64,000 bases of DNA from Syntrophomonas sp. (GCA_016841875.1 JAENYG010000006.1:1-64000), one strand, 5' to 3'; positions 2,469 to 53,550 are shown, numbered from the stretch's first letter. Program-made: numbers and translations. The notes: generated from the letters alone by a model not told the origin.

Positions 2469-4115
2469 TTACACTGCTTCTTCCTCCGCAGTTGCCAGTA
2501 CAATATCCTGAGCTGTAATGCTATTTCTCTTCTTGAAGAAGTCCATGTAGAAGAACCCGGTCAGAATAACAGCAAGTGCCGGTATCCAAGCCAGATATAG
2601 CATATCTTGCACCACATAGGTGTAGCTAAGGTAACACGCTCCTGGTATTGCTACGACAAAGGTGGTAAACATTAATGCAAACCAGAAGTACCCTGTAGGT
2701 CTGCCAACTAACTTAAGCCAAATGATAACCGTCATGAAGGACATTAATGCCAGTAGACTCGACAGGGCCGGGAAAAGTACCCATATATAGAACCAACCCC
2801 CGGACAGTGCCAGGATTCCACAGAGAACCAGGGAAAGTGATGCTGCACCCCACTTGGAAGCGGAATTAGGAACAACCGGTTTAACCGTCATTCCGTAAAG
2901 TTCCAGCATGAATATTCTCATGTTCCTGGCACCAGATTCCAGTGTCGTTATCATGAATATGCTGCCGAGCAATCCACCCCAGACTGCCCATACATCAAGG
3001 GGAATGAAAGTGAATACATTTCCGGCAATTTGTGCATACCCGTTTTGGAGGATAAATATCCACCCTTTACCGATATATTCCGAATAGACTGCCAGAGGCA
3101 AGACAGCGGCAGAAGCCAAAGCTACAAATGCCGTTAGTCCTTCCAATGCTTCTCCGCCATAGCCTATGAGGCGCACATATTTTTCATCAGGTATTCTTCT
3201 GGAGGTATATCCTGTGGTCCAGAAAGAATGCATCCCGGTCAAGGCACCGCATGATATGGTCAGGAACAACATCGGCCAAAGAGGTCCCTTGGAGGTCGTC
3301 GCGATAACAGCCGGCAGCTCAAGCGGAAGATTACCGACAATGCACCCTACCAGCAGGATTACCGATCCCACGCACATGAAGCAAAAATTAAGGAAGTTTC
3401 TGGGTTCGACCAACATCCACGCCGGGATGGAGGCTGATATTACCGGATAACATACGAAAATACCAAACCATACATAATACGACAGATGTATTGGGTATTT
3501 GAGACCCAACACAACGCATATACCTACGATTATTACTCCGAGTATAGTAGCCCTGAGAACCGGCCAGCCAAAACGATAGATCAAGAATCCCATCATAACC
3601 CCGCTGACAGTGAAGGCAATGGTCGGAAGAGTCAACTGCGGTGTCGCTTCGAAAAGCTTGGCTAACGCAGTTAGGAAAACAGCTGTAAATGCTGCAATAC
3701 TGAACCATCCTAGAAGCACGCCCATCTTTCCAGCCCTTACACTGATGAGCTCCGTTATAAGACCCCCTATGGTCTTCCCTTGTTTGCGCATAGAAATGTG
3801 CATAGTCGCATAGTCATGGGGTGAACCCAAGAATATGTTACCCAGGGTGATATAAAGGAAAGCGGGCAGGAAACCCCACATGGCACCAGTTGCGCCCCCT
3901 GCCAAAGGTGCACCGCCGGCTATTGATGCCCAGTGATCACCAAACAGTGTTACCGGATTAGCCGGATAAAAATCCACGTCATCCCGTAGTTCAATTGCCG
4001 GCACTTTCCTGCCTGGTTTGTATTTCAGATAAACTTTTTGCAGATGCCCACCAATAAACAAATATCCCAAAGTCCAGATGGCAATTCCTATTAATGTTAG
4101 TGACGTTGTAGTCAT
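2469..4115 (-). CDS. cstA: Carbon starvation protein CstA family transporter
   Basis: The protein has 548 residues with many hydrophobic segments and the CstA-family N-terminal block (GDHWASIAGGAPLAGGATGA, then SPHDYATMHISMRKQGKTIG). Characterised members import peptides or pyruvate when carbon is scarce. This copy is shorter than E. coli CstA (about 700 residues), as is common for family members in anaerobes. AGGAGG lies 6-12 nt before the ATG. It is the last gene of a same-strand series after the Hdr and CoA-transferase genes, but a 361-nt gap separates it from them, so it may have its own promoter. Substrate is unknown; an organic acid or pyruvate would fit the neighbourhood. Confidence 0.9.
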   Translation of the reverse strand: MTTTSLTLIGIAIWTLGYLFIGGHLQKVYLKYKPGRKVPAIELRDDVDFYPANPVTLFGDHWASIAGGAPLAGGATGAMWGFLPAFLYITLGNIFLGSPHDYATMHISMRKQGKTIGGLITELISVRAGKMGVLLGWFSIAAFTAVFLTALAKLFEATPQLTLPTIAFTVSGVMMGFLIYRFGWPVLRATILGVIIVGICVVLGLKYPIHLSYYVWFGIFVCYPVISASIPAWMLVEPRNFLNFCFMCVGSVILLVGCIVGNLPLELPAVIATTSKGPLWPMLFLTISCGALTGMHSFWTTGYTSRRIPDEKYVRLIGYGGEALEGLTAFVALASAAVLPLAVYSEYIGKGWIFILQNGYAQIAGNVFTFIPLDVWAVWGGLLGSIFMITTLESGARNMRIFMLELYGMTVKPVVPNSASKWGAASLSLVLCGILALSGGWFYIWVLFPALSSLLALMSFMTVIIWLKLVGRPTGYFWFALMFTTFVVAIPGACYLSYTYVVQDMLYLAWIPALAVILTGFFYMDFFKKRNSITAQDIVLATAEEEAV

Positions 4116-4476: not shown

Positions 4477-5271
4477 CTATTTCTTTCTAAGTGAACCAGT
4501 TACGTCTACTGCTCTGAGGTTCTCCAGTTCCTTTTCCGTAGGCTCAGGAATGACTTGTACATCCGGGGCTACCTTGAGATCCCAGCCAGTATTTTCTTTA
4601 ACTTCCTCTATGGAGGAGAAAGGATAATAACCAGTCAGAATAAACTCTTTAGTAACCGGGTCAGGTCTGAGAATTCCCAGAGTGGTAATCATTGCAGAAG
4701 GTCCGCCCCCTGGGAACCCATATTTTTCACGGGCATTTCCACCGTCCAGATAGCCCGGTGAGGAAATGTAAGAAACTTTTTCATTGAATCTCTTCTTCTC
4801 GTGAGTAACCATGAGCAGATATTGCTTGGCGCCGGTAGCAATCTCATTAGCACCACCGGAACCATTCAACCTTACTCTAGGCAGGGTGTATTTCCCGACC
4901 TTCCATGGATCGGTACCTTCCGCCCAGATGCCGGTAGTATTAACATTGCCATATTTATCAGTTTCTGCTGCACCGATAACTGCATTGTCAACTCTTCCAG
5001 AGGCCACCAGGAATCCCAGAGCATCAATAGCATTGGTAAAGCTGACTGCATTAGCGGATATACGATTGTCTTCTATACCCCAGGGCAGTCCACCTACTGG
5101 AGTGGATCCATAAACTCCGCCTTCAGTAAATGCCATCAGATTCGGAGCATGATTTCTCTGAGCAAAGAATCCTGCCAGCATACTGAGGCCAACCCCAAAT
5201 ATTGCCAGTTCACCATCTTTAAACTCCCTACCGGTTGCAATTGCCATCATTTCTTGTCTTGTATAGTCCAT
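4477..5271 (-). CDS. CoA-transferase subunit B, glutaconate type
   Basis: The protein has 264 residues and belongs to the family I CoA-transferase beta subunits, like glutaconate CoA-transferase B. The sequence TEGGVYG contains the glutamate expected to form the covalent CoA-thioester intermediate, and SGGANEIA..., followed by FPGGGPSAMITTLGI, matches the family C-terminal half. A longer frame opens at 5310, but the strong AAAGGAGGT sits just before an internal ATG at 5269-5271. That start leaves the gene non-overlapping with subunit A, whose stop is at 5276. The enzyme would move CoA between an acyl-CoA and a free acid in the cytoplasm. The acid pair is not determinable; a dicarboxylate or a fatty acid is possible. 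It is coupled to subunit A upstream. Confidence 0.85.
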   Translation of the reverse strand: MDYTRQEMMAIATGREFKDGELAIFGVGLSMLAGFFAQRNHAPNLMAFTEGGVYGSTPVGGLPWGIEDNRISANAVSFTNAIDALGFLVASGRVDNAVIGAAETDKYGNVNTTGIWAEGTDPWKVGKYTLPRVRLNGSGGANEIATGAKQYLLMVTHEKKRFNEKVSYISSPGYLDGGNAREKYGFPGGGPSAMITTLGILRPDPVTKEFILTGYYPFSSIEEVKENTGWDLKVAPDVQVIPEPTEKELENLRAVDVTGSLRKK

Positions 5272-5275
5272 GGTC

Positions 5276-6259
5276 TTACCTCCTTTCCAAGAGTTCCTTG
5301 ATTTCCGCATCAGTCTTAATCCACTGTCTGTACGGATCCATCAAGAACGCAGTATCAGTATTAGTTATCTTGTCGATTCTTTCCTGGCCGATCATGTTTA
5401 CATAATCCCAGACATCGCCATATTGGCCGAATTTTTCGAGATATTCATTGGTGCCTTCCTCAGTCTTGAGCATCTTATTCATGTAGAACATGTGCTCTTC
5501 ATCACTGTCATAAAGACCAGTGGAACATGCTGGCCACACGCCATACGGAGCATATACGACCGCATCAGTTACTATATAAGGAATTCTGACCAGGTTAGGA
5601 AATTGCCTCATAGCCCCGGTGTCCACTATCTTGTCAGCAACAAGAATTACCTTCTTGGAGCAGCGGGATAATTCATAGCGGCACCATTCGGTACCCAGCA
5701 TGATAGCATTACCATAAATATCTGCCATGGTTACATGTATTGCTGCTACATCAGGTTTGATCGGAGTGAATGCTCCACATATTTTGCCGGTGAATGGGTC
5801 AGTGATTTCAGGGATTTTTTTGGTATTGGGGTAGTTTTCGGGATCATCTGCTGATGCCCACTGCTGGTCACAACCAGTATTCATAAATGTAGGTACAAAT
5901 GGCCAGTTCAATGCTCCAGCCATCATCCGGATGGGGATAGCTCCATTGGAATAATCTTCCAGAATGGTTTTTCCGGTTTCAACTGCTCTTTTTAAGCCAT
6001 TAGCAAAACCATATACTTCTAATCCGGAAAATCCTACTTCTATCCGTTTAATTCCGCCTACTGCGGCTAACAGGTTGGTTCCCTGAGAGTTACAGTTGGA
6101 TGCACAGTCAATATCCTTTATTCCGGCTTTAACCATTTCTCTAAAAAACGAAATACAATCCGAGCCTACTGGCAGTGCTCCACCATGCCCAAAATACATG
6201 CCATCGTAGGTGTATTGTTCAACAGCTTCTTTCATTGTGATGAGCTTGCTTTTGTTCAA
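5276..6259 (-). CDS. CoA-transferase subunit A, glutaconate type
   Basis: The protein has 327 residues. The N-terminus (MKEAVEQYTYDGMYFGHGGALPVG) and central block (NTGCDQQWASADDPENYP, then CGAFTPIKPDVAAIHVTMAD) fit glutaconate CoA-transferase alpha subunits of about 320 residues. It pairs with the subunit B gene 4 nt downstream. The ribosome site is AAAGGAGGAAAAGTC before the ATG. The pair lies 250 nt after the Hdr-like operon on the same strand. This suggests the Hdr complex and the CoA ester may serve the same oxidation pathway, but the spacer holds a hairpin, so read-through is uncertain. Confidence 0.85.
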   Translation of the reverse strand: MNKSKLITMKEAVEQYTYDGMYFGHGGALPVGSDCISFFREMVKAGIKDIDCASNCNSQGTNLLAAVGGIKRIEVGFSGLEVYGFANGLKRAVETGKTILEDYSNGAIPIRMMAGALNWPFVPTFMNTGCDQQWASADDPENYPNTKKIPEITDPFTGKICGAFTPIKPDVAAIHVTMADIYGNAIMLGTEWCRYELSRCSKKVILVADKIVDTGAMRQFPNLVRIPYIVTDAVVYAPYGVWPACSTGLYDSDEEHMFYMNKMLKTEEGTNEYLEKFGQYGDVWDYVNMIGQERIDKITNTDTAFLMDPYRQWIKTDAEIKELLERR

Positions 6260-6510: not shown

Positions 6511-7386
6511 TTATGCCAGCCCTTTACTCTGCAGTAAGGGAAAGGGACTGGTAAGGAGTCGCTTTAATCCCAACTGCGCAGGTGAATACCCAAAGGCTAT
6601 CCCCATTAACTGGGTAAGATATATTATCGGCAAATCATATTTTTTACCTTTCTTGGCTGCAATAGCCTCTTGTCTGCTATCCAGGTTTACGCCGCACATG
6701 GGACAGGCTACCACAATCGCATCTGCTCCAGCCTGCTGGGCTGATTCCAAAACCTGTCCACTCAGATCCAGGACAATATCAGTGTCGCTAGCCGCATATC
6801 CACCGCCACAGCACTCTGCCTTGTGAGCCCAAACTACTGTATCGGCTCCCATAGCTTGAAGAATCAAATCCATAGATATGGGCTGTTCCGGATCGTCAAA
6901 TTGCACGACATCTTTGGGCCGGGTCAGCAAACAGCCATAATAGGCAGCCAGTTTTAAACCCTGCAGCGGTTTTATAGTTTTCTCAGCTACAGCATTCAAT
7001 CCCTGGTCCTCCATAATAAACTGCAGGAGATTGCTGACTTCCGGTTCCACGGGCGGCTCAGCCTGAATTATTTCTCCTACCTCAGCGGCCAAAACGCTAT
7101 TATTTCGCAGTTCATAGGAAGCGCCTTTCAACCGACTAAAACATCCAGCACATGGTGCCAGCACTTTATTCATCTTCATATCCCTGGCTATAGCCAGATT
7201 GCGAGCACTCAGACTTATAGTTAATTCATGATTCAGACTATGGGCTGCGGTAGCTCCGCAGCAGTTCCAGTCTTCAATCTCATTTAAGTTAATACCCAGG
7301 TGTTTGCATACTACTTCTACTGAGATACCATATTCTTTCGCCAATCCATGTAATGAACACCCGGGGAAATAAGCCACATTCATCAT
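6511..7386 (-). CDS. hdrB: HdrB-like CCG-domain subunit (second copy)
   Basis: The protein has 291 residues with two CCG (cysteine-rich) domains. The first shows GCS, NCCG and CAGC; the second shows GCLL, ECCGGG and CPMC. Both follow the C-x31..39-CC-x33..36-C-x2-C pattern that binds the unusual [4Fe-4S] clusters cleaving disulfides in methanogen heterodisulfide reductase. It starts directly after the hdrC-like stop and is the last gene of the five-gene operon. Methanogen coenzymes are not expected here, so the true substrate of the site is unknown. In bacteria such subunits serve menaquinone-linked, sulfur-oxidising or flavin-bifurcating complexes. Confidence 0.88.
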   Translation of the reverse strand: MMNVAYFPGCSLHGLAKEYGISVEVVCKHLGINLNEIEDWNCCGATAAHSLNHELTISLSARNLAIARDMKMNKVLAPCAGCFSRLKGASYELRNNSVLAAEVGEIIQAEPPVEPEVSNLLQFIMEDQGLNAVAEKTIKPLQGLKLAAYYGCLLTRPKDVVQFDDPEQPISMDLILQAMGADTVVWAHKAECCGGGYAASDTDIVLDLSGQVLESAQQAGADAIVVACPMCGVNLDSRQEAIAAKKGKKYDLPIIYLTQLMGIAFGYSPAQLGLKRLLTSPFPLLQSKGLA

Positions 7387-7968
7387 TTAGCCCTCCCTCT
7401 GTGCTGGTATATTTCTAAACATACGCCGAACCTGCTGTACATTTTTTATTCTGGAAGGGAGGGGATTCAACTTGCCTTTAAAAAACATTTTTATCCCCAT
7501 TTCAGCATCTTTGGTATACTGCTTGGACTTTATATTAAACTGCACAGTCATCAAAGCTTCTGCAACTCTGCCATACTGTTTGATAGAACCTAACATCAGT
7601 TCATGGAATAATTCTACATTGGGCCTGGTGGCAGGAACACACTGTTTATAAGCTTTTTCCCTCATATAATCCATTATCTTAGGAATATTAATGGATGAAG
7701 GACACCTGTCAACACACAACTGGCAGGCTACACAGGACCATAATGCATCCATCTTTAATAGTTTTGCTTCTTCTCCGATTTTTATTAATTGAATTATCTT
7801 CCTGGGAGTAATATCAAATATATGAGCATTGGAACATCCACCGGAACATTTGCCGCACTCCAAACACATTTCAATATCCGTGTGGCAGTGTTCTTTTATT
7901 TCCTCTCGGAGTGAGTTACTAGTTTGATCTATTCTTAAAACATGGTAGAAGTCTGCGGTATTATGCAT
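7387..7968 (-). CDS. hdrC: HdrC-like iron-sulfur subunit (second copy)
   Basis: The protein has 193 residues with two ferredoxin-type [4Fe-4S] motifs, CLECGKCSGGC near residue 35 and CVACQLCVDRCP near residue 78, as in HdrC (usually about 190 residues). It would carry electrons between the HdrA flavin subunit and the HdrB active-site subunit. It ends where the next hdrB-like gene begins, so translation is coupled. It differs clearly from the first hdrC-like gene of the operon, so the two are not a recent duplication. Confidence 0.88.
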   Translation of the reverse strand: MHNTADFYHVLRIDQTSNSLREEIKEHCHTDIEMCLECGKCSGGCSNAHIFDITPRKIIQLIKIGEEAKLLKMDALWSCVACQLCVDRCPSSINIPKIMDYMREKAYKQCVPATRPNVELFHELMLGSIKQYGRVAEALMTVQFNIKSKQYTKDAEMGIKMFFKGKLNPLPSRIKNVQQVRRMFRNIPAQREG

Positions 7969-7979
7969 TTACTCGCCCC

Positions 7980-9008
7980 CTAATCCTGATTGAACAGGGC
8001 TACCACGTCTGCAGCTGCGGCCGCTCCCTGATGCTGTGCTCCCAGACTCTCAACTGCGAATCCACATGCTCCGGCAAAGAACACTCGTTCTCCTGCCTGA
8101 ACTGGATTCTTGCTATCATATTCAATAAAGCCATACTGGTCTGTTTTAGCCGCAAACATTTCTGCTAGTTCTCCCGTTTTGGCATTGGGGACTATGGCAC
8201 TGGCCAGCACGATCATATCTGCTGCTACTTCCACCGGTACACCCATCAAAGTATCCTCGGCTCTTATCATAAGCTTGCCATTTTCGGGCAGTACTTTGGC
8301 GGGACGTCCTCTGACATACCGCACATGTTTTTCTTCAATGACCGAACGCACAAATTCTTCATATTCCTTGCCGGTAGCACGATAGTCCATATAAAATACA
8401 AAACATTTGGCATCTGGATTGAGGTCTTTCATAACCCCGGCCTGTTTAGCAGTATACATACAGCAAATCTTAGAGCAGTATGGAAAACCTTTAGAACGGT
8501 CCCGAGATCCTACACACTTGAAAAATGCTACTACCTGAGGCAATTCAGATTTATCTTTACCAGCCATGGCTTTGAGCTGATCTTCAAATTCCAGAGAATT
8601 ATACACATTTTCAAAGGCACCATAACCATATTCGCCATACACCGAAGCATCAAACATTTCAAATCCAGTGGCCAGAACTACCGCATCAACTTCAACCTGT
8701 TCTGAAACACTGGCACTGTCCAAATTAACTATAAAAGTTTTCTCTTTTCGCTCCGCTGAAGTCACAACTGTATTCAACATGGTTTTAATAGCGGAGCATT
8801 TCTCAATCTTTTTTACTTTGTCGTCCACCAGATCCTGTGGGTTCTCCCAGCGCGGGAAACTGCTGTAAAGCTTGTTTAATGCTCCACCCAGTTGCGGCTC
8901 TTTTTCAACTATAAGCACCTGGTAACCTGCATTACCAATTTTGATAGCAGCTTCCATACCGGCTACTCCCCCACCGATTATGAGTGCTGTCTTTTTCCTA
9001 TTGTTCAT
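7980..9008 (-). CDS. hdrA: Short HdrA-like FAD subunit
   Basis: The protein has 342 residues and opens with a Rossmann FAD-binding motif (GGGVAGMEAA). A middle block with CVGSRDRSKGFPYCSKICC and MDYRATGKEYEEF is diagnostic of HdrA-type flavoproteins. The C-terminus has the second nucleotide-contact motif (FFAGACGFAVESLGAQHQGAAAAADV). Methanogen HdrA is about 650 residues with ferredoxin inserts; this one lacks them, as do the roughly 340-residue HdrA proteins of bacterial sulfur-oxidising sHdr complexes. It sits centrally between two hdrCB pairs. Electron donor or acceptor is unknown. Confidence 0.87.
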   Translation of the reverse strand: MNNRKKTALIIGGGVAGMEAAIKIGNAGYQVLIVEKEPQLGGALNKLYSSFPRWENPQDLVDDKVKKIEKCSAIKTMLNTVVTSAERKEKTFIVNLDSASVSEQVEVDAVVLATGFEMFDASVYGEYGYGAFENVYNSLEFEDQLKAMAGKDKSELPQVVAFFKCVGSRDRSKGFPYCSKICCMYTAKQAGVMKDLNPDAKCFVFYMDYRATGKEYEEFVRSVIEEKHVRYVRGRPAKVLPENGKLMIRAEDTLMGVPVEVAADMIVLASAIVPNAKTGELAEMFAAKTDQYGFIEYDSKNPVQAGERVFFAGACGFAVESLGAQHQGAAAAADVVALFNQD

Positions 9009-9968
9009 TTATTTGTCTCCTTTCCCCAACCCCAGTTTTTTAAGAATAGGATCAACAGATGTTGAATTCGCATTAAACCCGATCGATTCAATGGGAGCTC
9101 CAAATGCCAGAGCAATCAGCTGCCCTAAATCTACTACCGGGATATCGTATGGTCCAAAGCCTCTTTTGGCTAGTTTGGGCTGTTCCCGATCCAGAGCTAC
9201 GTTGCATCCCGGACAGGTAGTGGTCATGATATCCACTCCCTCTTCCTTAGCGCTGTCGAATTTCTTGGCCAAATGAGGCTGCACCACGTTTTCCGGATGG
9301 GTAAATCCCCGGCCAACCGCATAGCCGCAGCACATCCTTCGCTCTTTATAAAAAACCGGAGTTGCTCCCAGAGCTGTGTATATCTCCTCATGGAAAGTAG
9401 GAAGATCCCCTTCATCCAGGATGCCATACTGCTGAGCCAAGTAGTGACAGCCATAGTGGGCTGCTACTCTTAAGCCAGTTAAAGGCCGAACTACATTTTC
9501 TTTAATACGATCCAACAGCAGGTAATATAATTCCTGCACATGATAAACGGTGCTCTTTCCTTCGTAATGGTATCCCCACTGAGCTATCAAATCATTGCAC
9601 ATCTTTTTATACTCCGGATGATGGTCTATAATGTGCTTTAATTCTTTATTGTAACCAAAACATCCATTGCAGAACACATAGGTATCCAAACCATATCTCT
9701 GTTCTACCAGCGCCAGATTGCGTGCCGTTACTGCCAGTGATGGTTCGGCAATATGCCCGGAACAGGTTAAAATATATCCAGAACAGCAGCTTTGATCAGG
9801 ATCTTTTATTACTTCTATCCCCAATTTCTTGAGAACATATTCTACGCAGTTCTCAGTTCCCGGATATTCCATACTGCCGGTACAACTGCGGAAGAGAAAT
9901 ATTTTTTCGGGGATTTCCGGAATACGTTCCTGGGGTTTAACTACCCTCTTCTGTGTCATAGCGCTCAT
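9009..9968 (-). CDS. hdrB: HdrB-like CCG-domain subunit (first copy)
   Basis: The protein has 319 residues with two CCG domains. The first has SCTGS, SCCSG and CNGC; the second has GCHY, MCCGY and CPGC. All cysteines for two cysteine-rich cluster sites appear present. Its start overlaps the upstream hdrC-like gene by 32 nt and its stop abuts hdrA. It is only distantly similar to the other hdrB-like protein of the operon, which suggests two non-equivalent halves of one complex, as in sHdr, where one HdrB is thought to be catalytic and the other electron-transferring. Confidence 0.87.
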   Translation of the reverse strand: MSAMTQKRVVKPQERIPEIPEKIFLFRSCTGSMEYPGTENCVEYVLKKLGIEVIKDPDQSCCSGYILTCSGHIAEPSLAVTARNLALVEQRYGLDTYVFCNGCFGYNKELKHIIDHHPEYKKMCNDLIAQWGYHYEGKSTVYHVQELYYLLLDRIKENVVRPLTGLRVAAHYGCHYLAQQYGILDEGDLPTFHEEIYTALGATPVFYKERRMCCGYAVGRGFTHPENVVQPHLAKKFDSAKEEGVDIMTTTCPGCNVALDREQPKLAKRGFGPYDIPVVDLGQLIALAFGAPIESIGFNANSTSVDPILKKLGLGKGDK

Positions 9969-10566
9969 CTACTAATCTCCCCCCCAAAAATGTAAGAGTC
10001 ACTGGTTTTTCTTCGCCTTTGGCCTGCACTTCATCCAGGGCTTTCATCCAATCATAAGCTCCGGTTTGTTTAAATATTTCACCATATTCGTGAATAGCTT
10101 TTTTCGATACCTTGGGCCAGGGGTCAACCCCTATTCCTTCACGTAAGCCTTTTATTTTATCTATACCTTTTTGCCCCGGAACAAAAGTCAATCCACATTC
10201 CAGGGATCGATAAGCATATTTGTTTATGGGCGTAACGTATTTAAGTCCATAACCATTCTCTAAGGCCAGATAGCGCAGTTGCATCATAAGCAGCGGGTAA
10301 TGAATATCAACCGGACATACTCGGTAACAATTCGCACACCACAAACATCTCCAGATTTCTTCACTCTGCAGTACTCTATCAACTTCTCCAAGCAATATAT
10401 CGTGTACTATCTGCCGGGGATTATAAGATGGATGCAAAGCTGCTACCGGACAGTTGCCGGTACATTTTCCGCACTGCAGGCATTCATCCAGGTTAGGCAC
10501 TAGATTATATCGGTCTACCTTTTGATATAACTTATCATCCCACTGAGTCATATTTTCTCTGGGCAA
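9937..10566 (-). CDS. hdrC: HdrC-like iron-sulfur subunit (first copy)
   Basis: The protein has 209 residues with two [4Fe-4S] motifs, CLQCGKCTGNCP near residue 28 and CLWCANCYRVCP near residue 74. The C-terminal extension is longer than in the second copy. It is the first gene of the operon, about 70-80 nt downstream of a well-formed sigma-54 promoter. The 32-nt overlap with the next hdrB-like gene implies coupled translation and a fixed stoichiometry. Confidence 0.87.
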   Translation of the reverse strand: MPRENMTQWDDKLYQKVDRYNLVPNLDECLQCGKCTGNCPVAALHPSYNPRQIVHDILLGEVDRVLQSEEIWRCLWCANCYRVCPVDIHYPLLMMQLRYLALENGYGLKYVTPINKYAYRSLECGLTFVPGQKGIDKIKGLREGIGVDPWPKVSKKAIHEYGEIFKQTGAYDWMKALDEVQAKGEEKPVTLTFLGGRLVDERYDTEEGS

Positions 10567-10642: not shown

Positions 10643-10661
10643 TTTGCAATTAATATGCCAA
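10643..10661 (-). promoter_or_regulatory. Sigma-54 promoter of the hdr operon
   Basis: Reading the minus strand gives TTGGCATATTAATTGCAAA. It has the invariant GG (-24) and GC (-12) separated by exactly 10 nt, close to the consensus TGGCACG-N4-TTGCA. Predicted start of transcription is near 10634, about 70 nt before the first hdrC start codon. A sigma-54 activator is encoded just upstream on the same strand (11043-12833). Confidence 0.8.
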
Positions 10662-10720: not shown

Positions 10721-10760
10721 AGTGTCAGCTTTCTAGAATTAATTCTAAAAAACTGACACT
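10721..10760. promoter_or_regulatory. 20-bp inverted repeat, likely activator site
   Basis: AGTGTCAG...TTCTAGAATT (10721-10740) is matched by AATTCTA...CTGACACT (10741-10760) at 18 of 20 positions with no spacer. The outer half-sites are AGTGTCAG and CTGACACT. It lies about 60-100 nt upstream of the -24 element, the usual place for a sigma-54 enhancer-like site. It could instead be a transcription terminator of the upstream genes, because the RNA would form a long hairpin, but a U-tract is lacking. Confidence 0.5.
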
Positions 10761-11042: not shown

Positions 11043-12833
11043 TTAATCTGATATCCCCAGGGCCTTCAGTTTATAATACAACGTACTGCGAGGAATACCT
11101 AGTTTCTTAGCCGCACGCGCTTTATTGTGTTTGCATTCTTCCATAGCCCGTATTATTACCTCTCGCTCCCTCTTGACCAGTAATTCATCCAAATTGGGCG
11201 GTTCTAAATCATCCTCTAAAATTTGACCTCTATTCAGAAGGTCGTTATTACCGCTTAAGTTCTCTAATACTCCGGCCTCAGCCAGGGAATTAATGCTGAT
11301 AAAATCATCCTCCATAAGAATAATCACACTTTCCAGCAGGTTATGCAGCTGTCGTACATTACCTGGCCATTCATAAGCCTGAAATAAGTCCAAGACCTGC
11401 TGATCAATCCCACCTATGGACCGCATATACACGCACTCCATCTCATTGATAAATCTTTTGATCAACCCGATTATATCTTCCTGCCTCTGTCTCAGCGGGG
11501 GAATTTCCAATGTAACAACATTTAAGCGGTAAAAAAGATCCTCCCGGAATTTTCCTTCTGCAACCAGTCGGGACAGGTCCTTATTGGTAGCTGCAATTAA
11601 CCTTACATTTATTTCAACTGTTGCGGTACCGCCCACCCGGTAAAACTTGCGTTCTTGAATTACCCTTAACAGCTTGGCCTGCATATCCAGGGGAAGTTCT
11701 CCTATTTCGTCTAAAAATATGGTTCCCCCATTGGCAAGCTCAAATTTACCCTGCTTTCCAGATTTGTTGCCGCCAGTAAAGCTGCCTGCTTCGTACCCAA
11801 ACATCTCACTTTCAAATAGATTGCTGGGAATCGCACTGCAGTTAACGGCAATAAATGCTTGTTTAGCTCGTTTGCTGTTTTGATAAATTACATTGGCCAT
11901 CAGTTCTTTGCCGGTACCGCTCTCTCCCTGAATCAGCACCGTGGCATCAGTTCCGCCCACCCGTTTGGCCTGTAATAATACTTTCTTAGTGTCTATATTA
12001 ATAGTGTAGAATGGCTCTTTGATAATGTCTTCTTTATTCACAATTCTTTCCTCAAGCTGTTTTACTCGTCTGTTAACCCGGTTCAGCTCTTCCATTAACG
12101 TTTTGGTGTGGCTGACATCGGCAGTGGTAGAAACTGCTCCAACAACAGTCCCATCCGGCATAATCACCGGTACTGCATTGCGTACCACATATAAACCTTC
12201 CCTTAATTCATAAAAAATATTACGGCATGATTCGCTGGTAGCTATTACTTTCAAAGTAATATCGTCAGGGAAAAATTCCTCCAGCTGATAGCCGACAATA
12301 TCCTCTGCCTTAAACCCGAATAAATCTTCTGCACTTCGATTCCAGAAAATCACCCTTCCCTGGCAGTCGACTACTTGAATGGCCTGACTAATGTTATCCA
12401 ATATGGCATACATATGCTCGCTAAGCATTTCTAATTTATCGCAGAATCCATTGCATACATCTCTGGCAGTTAACATACCAACAATACTTCCAGTAACATC
12501 CATAACCGGCAGTCGGCCAATCTTGAGTTGCCTCATGACTTCCCGTGCCTCTACTAAAGGTTCATCGACAGTAGTAGTAATAGTATTTTTTCTGCCAATT
12601 TCAGATATGGGAAGATAGGGAGGAAAGCCGTTCTCTACACATCTCATAAGATGCTCTTTAGTTACTAGATGGAGACCATCTGGGCAACCATCTTCAATGA
12701 CCACTTCTCCCCAGTGATTCTGCAGCATCATGCTGATTACCGTCTCTACTGCAGTATCGCTGTTAACACGCCCAAAATCGCAGGTCATCGCTTCTCCAAC
12801 ATTGATAGTATTAATCGGTTGCATTTGTGTCAA
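11043..12833 (-). CDS. CBS-PAS sigma-54-dependent activator
   Basis: The protein has about 596 residues. Two CBS domains cover roughly residues 10-130 ([22 protein letters not shown]) and a PAS domain covers about 140-250 ([22 protein letters not shown]). An AAA+ sigma-54 interaction domain has Walker A GESGTGKE, Walker [12 protein letters not shown] and the sigma-contact loop GSFTGG (GAFTGA in most relatives). A Fis-type helix-turn-helix ends the protein ([18 protein letters not shown]). The open frame reaches 12863, but AAGGAGG precedes TTG at 12831-12833. CBS pairs often bind adenine nucleotides, so energy charge is a plausible signal. Its likely target is the sigma-54 promoter of the adjacent hdr operon. 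Confidence 0.9.
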
Positions 12834-12992
12834 GGAAATACCTCCTTTTTCCAAGAAGATCAAAAGTCCGTCGCAATAAGTCGATTTATGTCTTGTGACT
12901 ATTATAACATAGCAAAATCATTTATTCAGCAATATCATGACAGGCATTTATGGCCTTAACGGTAATGGCAATCGATTAGAATTTTCTGTTAA

Positions 12993-21547: not shown

Positions 21548-23113
21548 TCAATTCATTAGATTATTATTTAGACTACCTTGGTCAGTTTGCATTTTAATTA
21601 TCATATTGATCCGTAAAACTGCGGCAGCCACTTCTCCAGCTGTTTTTAGGGCGTTTGTTTTAACTCCAGCCGAATCAACTATTCCTTTTTCAAAAGCATC
21701 TATCAATTGTTCTGAACTATAATCTATGGAAATAGAAGAGCTGCCTGCTTCTTTCTGGGCGGTAATCACATCCCCCATTTTTTTAAGAGGATTTAATCCT
21801 GCATTAGCAGCCATACACAAAAAAGGTCTTTTTAGAGCTTCACTTACACAGGAAATACCGTAGGAACTTAAACCATCTTCATGATCGGCTAACTCTTGAA
21901 GTCTTTCGGCCAGCCAAACTTCCAATGTTCCTCCCCCTGCAACTATACCCCCCTGTACCGCCGCCTGAACAGCAGCTGCTGCATCTTGAGCAATACGTTC
22001 TCTCTCCTCTGCCGCTTCTCTGGTGGAAGCCCCTATCAATATGGTAGCAAAACTCTCTCCGCTGCCATCATAAACACATACCTGCCGGTTTTTTTTGTCA
22101 AACCAGACCTGTTCGGCGCAGCCGATATATTGTTTAACCTTTTCAATGGTTTCATCCAGTGTACATCTTTTTAGTTTTTGAGCTCCAGTGTGTCTGCATA
22201 AGTCATCCATTTCACGGGATGATACTCTTTGAACTGCTGCTATACCGGAGCGGCTGAAAAATTCTTCGGCTGTATCGTCAATGCCCCGGTCAACCACAAC
22301 CAAGTTAACACCGGAATCTCTTATCTTCTGAAGATTATACTCGTAGAGATCACGGGACTGCATATAATGTTTAAATCCGCTGTCTGTTTTCAGAGCATCA
22401 TTATCTATTTTGCCTGGTCCAAGTGCATCATTAATAACCATGATGACTGGATTGCCGATATATTCCGGCAGTATATGCATATTTATCGGTTCCTTATTAA
22501 TAATGACCCCGTTAAATACCCTATCTGCTGCTGCTTCACAAGATGTAACCGCATCAGCCAATTTATAAACCGGATGCAGCAATTTCTCCATCCCGCTTAG
22601 ACTGGCACCATCTACTACCAGCCTTGCTAAATCCTCATATCCCCTTCCTGCAATTACTGCAGTATCGAATAAATGCTTATCGTCTAAAGATGAAATATGA
22701 ACAGTAGCTTCATTAATCAGCCTAATAGCTTCTTTTATACCTTTATTAATACCATCGACCAGTGAGCTCACAGGTACTCCTTTTAAAATTCGGGATGATC
22801 CCTCAGCAATAAGGGCACCGGCTAAAATAGCAGTAGTTGTAGTACCATCACCTACTTCTGACTGCTGTGATTTAACGGCACTGATAATCATTCGAGCTAC
22901 TGGATGGTTAACTTCCATCAAATTCAATATGGTGAGGCCGTCATTGCTAACAGCTATACCCCCAAAGTTATCAATGAGCATAACATCCAGGCCCTTGGGA
23001 CCGAGGGTTCCTTCTACCACCCGAGACACTGCCTGGGCTGCGCTGGTGTTATTAAGCAGAGTCCGAAAATTTTCCTCCACTTCCTGATGACCTGTAAGAA
23101 GATGATCAGACAT
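21548..23113 (-). CDS. Archaeal-like (group II/III) chaperonin in dnaK operon
   Basis: The protein has 521 residues and belongs to the TCP-1/thermosome side of the chaperonin family, not GroEL. It has GPKGLDVMLIDNFG, the ATP motif GDGTTTTAILAGAL, and the downstream block VQGGIVAGGGTLEV. It would form a double-ring ATP-driven folding chamber with a built-in lid and so need no GroES; none is encoded nearby. Chaperonins of this kind are known inside dnaK operons of a few Firmicutes such as Carboxydothermus. AAGGAGG lies before the ATG at 23111-23113. It sits between hrcA and grpE and should be under CIRCE control. Confidence 0.88.
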   Translation of the reverse strand: MSDHLLTGHQEVEENFRTLLNNTSAAQAVSRVVEGTLGPKGLDVMLIDNFGGIAVSNDGLTILNLMEVNHPVARMIISAVKSQQSEVGDGTTTTAILAGALIAEGSSRILKGVPVSSLVDGINKGIKEAIRLINEATVHISSLDDKHLFDTAVIAGRGYEDLARLVVDGASLSGMEKLLHPVYKLADAVTSCEAAADRVFNGVIINKEPINMHILPEYIGNPVIMVINDALGPGKIDNDALKTDSGFKHYMQSRDLYEYNLQKIRDSGVNLVVVDRGIDDTAEEFFSRSGIAAVQRVSSREMDDLCRHTGAQKLKRCTLDETIEKVKQYIGCAEQVWFDKKNRQVCVYDGSGESFATILIGASTREAAEERERIAQDAAAAVQAAVQGGIVAGGGTLEVWLAERLQELADHEDGLSSYGISCVSEALKRPFLCMAANAGLNPLKKMGDVITAQKEAGSSSISIDYSSEQLIDAFEKGIVDSAGVKTNALKTAGEVAAAVLRINMIIKMQTDQGSLNNNLMN

Positions 23114-23139
23114 TAACTCCTCCTTGACATTATCAGTCC

Positions 23140-24177
23140 TCAAAAAAATTTTTTACTTAATAACTGGTCCAGGATGTTGCGGAGCGATTCAACCGTTCCG
23201 GCTGCTTTCCAATATTCCATTCTAACCGGTCCAATAACCCCTATTTTACCCATTTCACCGAAGTTATTGTACCCGGCTACAACCAGACTCATCTCCTGTA
23301 TATCTTCAGCTTTGTTTTCTTTACCAATAGTAATATTTACATCCTCGCTTATTTTCTCGGGAATTATCTGTTTTAATAATATGTCCTCTTCGAGAATGGT
23401 TAATATACGTTTTAACTTATCCATATCCTTAAATTCTGGTTCATTTAATATGTTCAAAGCACCGCTTATGACAACACTTTCGTCCCGGGAACCCTGCATC
23501 ATAACATCAACGGCTTCCAGCACCTTATCAATAACTTTTCTCCGGTTTTTCAAATCTTCTCGCAGGGCTTTTAGTTCATTACGCCTCATTTCCTCCAGCC
23601 TGGTTCCTGATAAAACTCGGGTGAATGCCTTCCCTATTAGCTGCAATTCTTCACTGGAAATGGAGGATGGAACATCAATTCTACGATGCATCAACACACC
23701 TACGTCGGTTACTACCAGCAGCATTGCTTTTCCATCGGTAATAGGGATAATTTGAACATTCTTAAACTCACTCAGTTTTATAGATGGAACTATGACGAAG
23801 GAAGCATAATTGGTTACCTGGGATAGAAAACTACCCACTTTACTAACAATATCGCTCCATTCGCCTATATTTTCATTTAATATCTTGTTCAGTATTTCCA
23901 GCTCAGAATCATCCAAAGTCTCTTTTTGCATCATACAGTCAACATAATACCTGAAACCCATTTCTGAAGGTATTCTGCCCGCAGAAGTATGGGGCTGCTC
24001 CAGATATCCCATATCCTCCAAATCAGCCATTTCATTCCGAACCGTAGCCGCACTTATCCTCAGATTATGTTTTCTTACTACCGAACGTGACCCAACCGGT
24101 TCGGCAGTTTCAACATAGTCCCGGATAATTGATTCTAATATTTTGCTTTTTCTGGTATCTAAGCTCATATTTTTCAC
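23140..24177 (-). CDS. hrcA: Heat-shock repressor HrcA
   Basis: The protein has 345 residues. The N-terminal winged helix ([38 protein letters not shown]) is the HrcA signature and the rest is the dimerisation/GAF-like domain, ending with the expected GPVRMEY. It represses the operon by binding CIRCE and needs chaperonin help to fold. The start is GTG at 24177 or ATG three codons later. Its own operator lies 8 nt upstream, so it is autoregulated. Confidence 0.96.
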
Positions 24178-52457: not shown

Positions 52458-53550
52458 TTGGGTAATAATTACAAAGCACTTTTGTTGGATTTCTCTCCTA
52501 ACTGCGTAATAGCGATAGATAGGAAACTGAATATTACCCATGTAAATCAGAGGGCAATTAATACCTTCAATTTCGAAAACAATATAATTGGCGAAAATGT
52601 TTTATCGGTTTTTACAAGTAGTTTGGGGATAGTAAAGAAGCAACGTGAACTTGCCGATATAATAAAAACTAATATTGATATAAACAATGAGTTCATTCAC
52701 CTGCAAACTATATCTGGGATGAAAAGGTATTTAGTAACAGCTCGTTGTATAAGTCTTAATGAAGAATTTATCGGTAAGATCCTTCTTATTCAGGAAATGT
52801 GTATTGATATTGGGAGAGAGCGGTACAGGAAAAGACTTATTTGCCCAGTCTATTCACAATGCAAGCAGACGAAGTAATCAACCCTATATTGCAATTAACT
52901 GTGCCGCAATACCTAGAGAGCTATTGGGTAGTGAATTATTTGGATACGAGGAAGGAGCCTTTACAGGCGCGAAAAAAGGTGGTAATCCTGGTAAATTTGA
53001 ATAGGCTGAAGGAGGAACTATCTTTCTCGATGAAATCGGAGAAATGCCTTTGGATATGCAAACGGCGTTGCTAAGAGCAATAGAAGAAAAGGCAGTAACC
53101 CGGATAGGGGGAAAAACGGCTTGCTCTGTGGCTGTTAGAATAATAGCAGCAACCAACAAAGACTTATTAAACCAAGTAGAAAAAGGCCACTTTCGCAATA
53201 ACCTCTACTACCGGCTAAATGTTATTACTATTAAATTACCACCATTAAGAGAAAGAAAAGGAGATATTCCTATATTAATAAAGAATCTCGTTAATAAAAT
53301 AGGTGAGCAATTGGACCATAGAATTAAAAATATAGATTCCGGCTTCTACATGGCGTGCTCATTGTTTAACTGGCCAGGTAACATTCGCCAATTGCAAAAT
53401 ACCATCGAGTTCTGTATCAATTTAGCCAAGTCTTCATATTTGGGTTTAGATCTATTACCAGAAGAAATTAGAAAAAACATTAACCTGCATGAAGAGCATA
53501 AATTAGACCCGACAAAAATAATGAAATCATATATTGTATCGCAAACTTAA
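52458..53550 (+). pseudogene. Broken paralogue of the sigma-54 activator
   Basis: Three pieces align in order with the intact activator on the other side of the spacer: a PAS domain (52458 to about 52800; CVIAIDRKLNITHVNQRAI), the start of the AAA+ domain ([20 protein letters not shown], then [12 protein letters not shown]), and its remainder (EMPLDMQTALLRAIEEKAVTRIGG). The N-terminal sensor is absent, about 45 residues between PAS and Walker A are deleted with a frameshift near 52800, a TAG at about 53001 interrupts FE-AEGGT, and the C-terminal HTH is missing after KSY. It is divergent from its paralogue, so it arose by local duplication or is the remnant of a second regulator. Confidence 0.85.

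Follow-up and report, generated by a model that had tools for sequence, protein, structure and literature searches.

We examined a block of five hdr genes, and the genes linked to it, in a 64,000-nt stretch of Syntrophomonas sp. DNA (GCA_016841875.1, JAENYG010000006.1:1-64000), here called the window, which is contig C34 of the 3.97-Mb genome G000. Complexes of the Hdr type have been described in methanogenesis, Flox bifurcation and sulfur oxidation. All five open reading frames (ORFs) that the initial annotation had described were found, on the minus strand from 10566 to 6511, in the order hdrC1-B1-A-C2-B2. hdrC1 and hdrB1 overlap, and the remaining intergenic gaps are 0–11 nt. With about even confidence, we think that the block encodes a soluble Hdr complex with two arms, which forms a family by itself, is controlled by sigma-54 and serves a CoA-thioester pathway together with CoA-transferases (CoATs), an acid transporter and a selenocysteine (Sec)-containing, IpdAB-like enzyme, CoAT2.

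Each HdrC has two CXXCXXCXXXC motifs and each HdrB has two complete CX(n)CCX(n)CXXC motifs (Table 1). The two HdrB proteins are as dissimilar as first annotated, and their types part at 100/100 in an HdrB tree. HdrB2 groups with Flox HdrB and sHdrB2, while HdrB1 lies on the opposite side, beside methanogen HdrB (87/91). Unlike the window operon, methanogen HdrABC has a single HdrB-HdrC arm, a long HdrA and CoM-S-S-CoB as substrate. The HdrA of the window is indeed short, at 342 residues, with neither an N-terminal [4Fe-4S] domain nor ferredoxin domains. Its alignment with sHdrA (PDB 6tjr) is collinear throughout, at 31% identity over 321 aa; methanogen HdrA could be aligned with the window protein only as two pieces flanking an insert. 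The window HdrA is 71–73% identical to that of four congeners, and HdrC1/HdrB1 are 84–97% identical. Over positions 8470–8900, in the 5' half of hdrA, nucleotide identity to a congener is 62–68%, versus 83–89% on the flanks. hdrA is either mosaic or fast-evolving, and the dip in identity in its 5' half suggests recombination.

A maximum-likelihood tree of HdrA was built with IQ-TREE and rooted at the midpoint. The sHdr references were few, consisting of 6tjr and one Bacillota sHdrA (G200), and Qmo was left out. Three groups were obtained. The first contains the window protein and its relatives (99.2/100), then Desulfosporosinus lacus and G079 (88.7/97), then G083 and G167 (98.7/100). The second unites Flox and methanogen HdrA (99.7/99), and the third unites sHdr (6tjr, G200) with Picosynechococcus (94.9/99). 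As judged from the tree, the window HdrA belongs to its own clade, apart from both sHdrA and Flox/methanogen HdrA. This separation is solid; the branching order of the groups is not firm because of the midpoint root and the few sHdr references. In the search for further sHdr references, a plasmid collection gave only Picosynechococcus and Ilyobacter matches. A plasmid of Picosynechococcus sp. PCC 7003 (L099, 5065–9513) bears a C-B-A-C-B block that falls on the sHdr side and lacks a hyp gene; the HdrB1 of this block has a single complete CCG motif. Relatives have short MetV-F-HdrA proteins (L055, L056), which were rejected as sHdr, as they have MetV/MetF-like neighbors and no HdrB or HdrC.

The operon had been called sHdr-like. 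The likeness stands for architecture, as the sHdr complex of Hyphomicrobium denitrificans (shdrC1B1A-hyp-C2B2) also has two HdrC-HdrB arms in the same order and a short HdrA that holds one FAD and one [4Fe-4S]. It does not extend to descent or to the accessory genes. A true Bacillota sHdr cluster (G200, locus L115), used as a positive control, has a 268-aa hyp gene and an LbpA-like protein, and in a published survey every sHdr cluster comes with LbpA (PMC6067878). In the window only 11 nt separate hdrA and hdrC2, with no hyp gene between them, and no LbpA or LplA gene was found in the neighborhood of the block, in agreement with the initial annotation. Across G000 as a whole LbpA was not found either; the sole GcvH of the genome belongs, with LplA, to the glycine-cleavage operon gcvT-H-PA-PB-lpd-lplA on C35. 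Nor was LbpA found near the related hdr clusters. For DsrE and TusA, the genome gave a fused 200-aa YedF-like ORF and a separate TusA, together with two borderline matches to DsrE.

The same genome has a complete Flox-Hdr cluster on another contig (L052, C52:38000-54000), to which HdrC2-HdrB2 and the HdrA core of the window are homologous. However, the C52 cluster has a long Flox HdrA that includes ferredoxin domains and a Sec site, and flx genes adjoin it; the window operon has none of these. Neither flxABCD nor mvhD was found beside the window block, only the C52 cluster having such neighbors, and no QmoC-type membrane subunit lies beside it.

The nearest named relatives of the host are Syntrophomonas and Syntrophomonadaceae metagenome-assembled genomes (MAGs), and the host is an anaerobe of the digester type. 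HdrA homologs at 56–73% identity were identified in 15/60 relatives searched, or 16/61 genomes (56–100%) with the host included. All 16 lie inside C1-B1-A-C2-B2 blocks, the contig of G040 starting within hdrB1. At L046 gene calling had masked hdrA by an opposite-strand ORF, and tblastn revealed the gene (L016). Some 85,000 species genomes were scanned with HdrB1, which yielded 34 loci, most of them with the block, including Desulfosporosinus lacus, a Pelotomaculum MAG, Syntrophaceae, and Desulfovibrio and Thermoleophilia MAGs. Altogether the block is kept in about 30 genomes, chiefly Syntrophomonadaceae MAGs. Because it is conserved in 15/60 relatives and in most of the 34 loci, the five-gene arrangement is not due to chance. 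Two loci (L117 4284–8860 and L118 5391–9910) have a variant block in which a second short HdrC lies after HdrA, ahead of HdrC2, and which has genes for two small conserved proteins on its upstream side.

Conservation extends to the flanking genes. The usual order in relatives is the activator, the hdr block, CoAT1 and a transporter (MFS or CstA), followed in many by CoAT2, so the CoA-transferase and CstA first noted alongside the block are part of a conserved linkage. Since this linkage of CoA-transferases and organic-acid transporters recurs across many genomes, sulfur oxidation is a much less likely role than one in a CoA-thioester pathway. Members of another Bacillota family (G214, G262) retain the hdr block along with MFS, CoAT2 and the activator, with an AtoDA-like pair in place of CoAT1. 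A minimal unit, C1-B1-A-CoAT2-activator, lacks C2-B2 (G189/L090). CoAT2 was found in 10/13 hdr-positive relatives and in 0/8 hdr-negative relatives (Fisher p about 0.001, kinship ignored), and in a phylum sample all 9 genomes with a close CoAT2 also have the hdr block. In one Syntrophomonas MAG (L085, 676–8071) glycine-reductase genes (component B, GrdC-like, trxAB-like) lie directly upstream of the hdr block. Thioredoxin-like genes lie downstream of the G167 block, with a CsoR-like gene nearby. The Desulfosporosinus lacus block (L093) is flanked by TauE/SafE-, OsmC-, Crp-like, CoA-disulfide reductase-like and molybdopterin oxidoreductase-like genes, named by eye.

Table 1. Genes and regulatory sites of the hdr locus, in window coordinates.
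Feature	Position	Strand	Remarks
Activator-site palindrome TGTCAG-N24-CTGACA, 36 bp, near-perfect	10723..10758	.	z -9
Sigma-54 -24/-12 promoter TGGCATATTAATTGCA	10645..10660	-	94 nt ahead of hdrC1
HdrC1, 209 aa, two [4Fe-4S] motifs	9937..10566	-	TTG start; MPRE start kept in relatives
HdrB1, 319 aa, two complete CCG motifs	9009..9968	-	Methanogen-type HdrB branch
HdrA, 342 aa, FAD motif GGGVAG and cluster motif C165-C178-C182-C183	7980..9008	-	Ferredoxin domains absent
HdrC2, 193 aa, two [4Fe-4S] motifs	7387..7968	-	
HdrB2, 291 aa, two complete CCG motifs	6511..7386	-	Flox/sHdrB2-type branch
Sigma-54 enhancer-binding activator, CBS-PAS-AAA+-Fis	11043..12863	-	Closest NCBIfam PrdR, score below cut-off; adjoins hdr block in most loci
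CoAT1 alpha, class I CoA-transferase, Gct/Ipd-like	5276..6259	-	Asn where CoAT2 has Sec
CoAT1 beta	4477..5310	-	Retains Glu (FTEGG) at usual catalytic position
CstA-family transporter, pyruvate/peptide type	2469..4115	-	Replaced by MFS transporter in many relatives

The alpha subunit of CoAT2 has an in-frame TGA at one fixed site in 20 loci, down to 37% identity, and never TAA or TAG. Two homologs (L084, L131) have Cys at this site, where IpdA-like proteins carry Glu and Gct-like proteins, CoAT1 among them, carry Asn. In CoAT2 alpha the predicted Sec is residue 105. Directly 3' of the TGA lies a hairpin of the selenocysteine insertion sequence (SECIS) type, GCTCTCCGTGCGGGAGC and variants. It pairs in 18/18 aligned sequences of the closer group, with 9 double-change cells, and 0/500 shuffles matched the covariation. 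In two of the pairs both partners vary, in each case at third codon positions. Single-sequence folding energy of the region was not significant (z about -0.3 to -0.5 in four windows, the first misplaced), and so the case for the hairpin is one of covariation and not of energy. The genome encodes the Sec machinery, with tRNA-Sec (70 bits) and SelB (371 bits) both on C41. Judged from these features, CoAT2 alpha is almost certainly a selenoprotein. The reading frame of the Flox HdrA on C52 is interrupted by a TGA at the known CxxU site, which makes this Hdr protein a second selenoprotein of the genome.

CoAT2 has the class I CoA-transferase fold of IpdAB and glutaconate CoA-transferase (PDB 6co6, 1poi), and its alpha subunit matches IpdA with E about 1e-23. 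The HMMER alignment leaves a 2-residue gap beside the Sec site. An ungapped reading was preferred because four Glu-bearing intermediates align gap-free. In the ungapped comparison Sec falls on a residue that differs between IpdA entries, Glu in 6co6 and Ala in 6coj; we take this Glu to be catalytic. CoAT2 differs from IpdAB-type hydrolases in having Sec or Cys in place of the alpha Glu seen in 6co6, and its beta subunit lacks the usual Glu. No such family is among the NCBIfam models or in selenoprotein reviews and methods texts of 2016, 2022, 2025 and 2026, which is not proof of novelty. CoAT2 would represent a selenoprotein family of CoA-transferase fold, in our view the most interesting part of the system.

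The hdr operon and CoAT2 also share regulatory sites. The sigma-54 promoter pattern was found upstream in 16/24 loci, compared with 0.18 expected (shuffled mean). The palindrome is present in the window and 14 relatives (L037–L049, L051), and was not found in the outlying lineages. Across the genome its pattern occurs at four places, namely the window, two on C19 and one on C5 with a different core; the reversed-pattern control gave 1. Outside the window, palindromes with the same core are confined to C19, where one lies 183 bp before CoAT2 alpha and the other before an hdr relic. A sigma-54 site of CoAT2 alpha itself, TGGCATGCTAATTGCA, lies 119 nt ahead of the ATG. Judged by these DNA sites, the hdr operon and CoAT2 are one regulon with a common promoter type and a common predicted activator site. 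The initial annotation had missed both the linked Sec enzyme and this regulon.

The relic (L053 7829–8332, C19 at about 57.8–58.5 kb, and likewise C7:58629–59159 in G002) derives from a second hdr operon. It consists of fused fragments of HdrA and HdrB and retains its own palindrome and sigma-54 site. In G001 and G002 the operon and CoAT2 or the relic are on a single contig, and this synteny suggests that C19 adjoins C34, with an assembly gap between them at window position 1.

From these partners we infer a two-site thiol/selenol redox complex that serves a CoA-thioester pathway. The short HdrA, with its FAD and one [4Fe-4S], would link two different HdrC-HdrB arms. An organic acid would be imported and then activated by CoAT1 to its CoA thioester, on which the CoAT2 selenol would act. 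CoAT2 would be left as, or hand on, an oxidized Se-S or S-S species. HdrB1, the arm retained in the minimal operon, may exchange electrons with this species; they would pass via the HdrA flavin, and HdrB2 would exchange with a second thiol/disulfide or carrier. For syntrophic anaerobes, one paper reports no DsrC and terms the thiol-disulfide carrier for Hdr 'alternative and unknown' (PMC6687939).

As to direction, we lean toward reduction, with Hdr re-reducing the selenoenzyme by analogy to thioredoxin and glycine reductase, because of the glycine-reductase neighbors in L085, the thioredoxin-like genes after the G167 block and the general chemistry of Sec reductases. A more specific version is offered tentatively. 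The Sec enzyme may cleave or reduce an acyl-CoA by selenol chemistry, and the two-armed Hdr may regenerate the selenol or collect electrons, giving a selenium-dependent energy pathway that is a counterpart of glycine reductase made from unrelated parts. The likeness to Grd/Prd lies in a selenoenzyme acting on a small acid (proposed for CoAT2), a PrdR-like activator, and grd genes directly before the hdr block in one MAG. Unlike these systems, CoAT2 has no sequence relation to Grd/Prd, and re-reduction by Hdr is a proposal. The window complex is a branch of its own among Hdr complexes, found in syntrophic anaerobes and linked to CoA-thioester chemistry, and its co-regulation with CoAT2 points to an undescribed organic-acid processing route. 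Since the promoter type is shared, the link between hdr and CoAT2 can be tested by simple expression work.

Several points weigh against our main reading. Three hdr-positive relatives (G002, G003, G026) have no CoAT2, so the complex may have a wider role, and none was found within the stretch read around the Desulfosporosinus, Syntrophaceae and G083/G167 clusters. The association counts are inflated by relatedness. A CoA-disulfide reductase with a C-terminal rhodanese domain adjoins CoAT2 in G000, and related genes adjoin it in G008, G010 and G012, which could indicate persulfide chemistry. The sequence itself establishes the anatomy of the complex, its separate clade, its conserved partners, the Sec site with its SECIS hairpin, and the shared promoter and activator sites.

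The initial annotation had proposed adaptation to acyl-CoA or organic-acid oxidation and not sulfur oxidation. The absence of LbpA and the conserved CoA-transferases and transporter uphold an organic acid over sulfur, but not oxidation. In an oxidative pathway the complex would gather electrons, a thiol or CoA-bound intermediate being oxidized at one HdrB and a second acceptor receiving electrons at the other. The CoA-transferases and transporter would fit, syntrophic hosts depend on fatty-acid oxidation, and acyl-CoA dehydrogenase-like genes adjoin the cluster in G035/L042 (by eye). However, the block has no conserved gene for a dehydrogenase, Etf or Flx, and the Sec enzyme and glycine-reductase neighborhood suit reductive chemistry equally well or better. 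We regard oxidation as possible but rather doubtful.

Handling of persulfides or CoA disulfides, in a counterpart of sHdr with CoA replacing lipoate, is unlikely. The CoA-disulfide reductase with its rhodanese domain beside CoAT2 in G000 and the related genes in G008, G010 and G012 would agree with it, as would the related reductase, TauE/SafE- and OsmC-like genes in Desulfosporosinus lacus and the CsoR-like gene near the G167 block. Many clusters lack a CoA-disulfide reductase, though, the TusA/DsrE complement is limited to the YedF-like, lone TusA and borderline matches, and two CoA-transferases would go unexplained.

A true sulfur-oxidizing sHdr complex whose partners were lost or relocated is highly improbable in spite of the identical C-B-A-C-B order and short HdrA, as membership of sHdr is rejected on account of an HdrA outside that clade and of the missing hyp and LbpA, the relatives are anaerobic, and the window operon differs further in its linkage to CoA-transferases and a selenoenzyme and in having no dedicated lipoate assembly genes. 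We likewise give very little credence to a conventional bifurcating HdrABC, Flox- or Mvh-linked, that has one more arm: HdrB2 resembles Flox HdrB (41%) and pairwise identity of HdrA is higher to Flox HdrA than to sHdrA, but membership is rejected on account of the separate HdrA clade, the short HdrA without N-terminal and ferredoxin domains, the absence of flx and mvhD nearby, and the complete Flox-Hdr cluster already on C52.

Two further features of the window were noted by eye. A truncated sigma-54 activator fragment at 53044–53550 is probably a pseudogene. A chaperonin-like ORF at 21548–23143, with the look of group II/III and not of GroEL, lies between hrcA and grpE in the dnaK operon.

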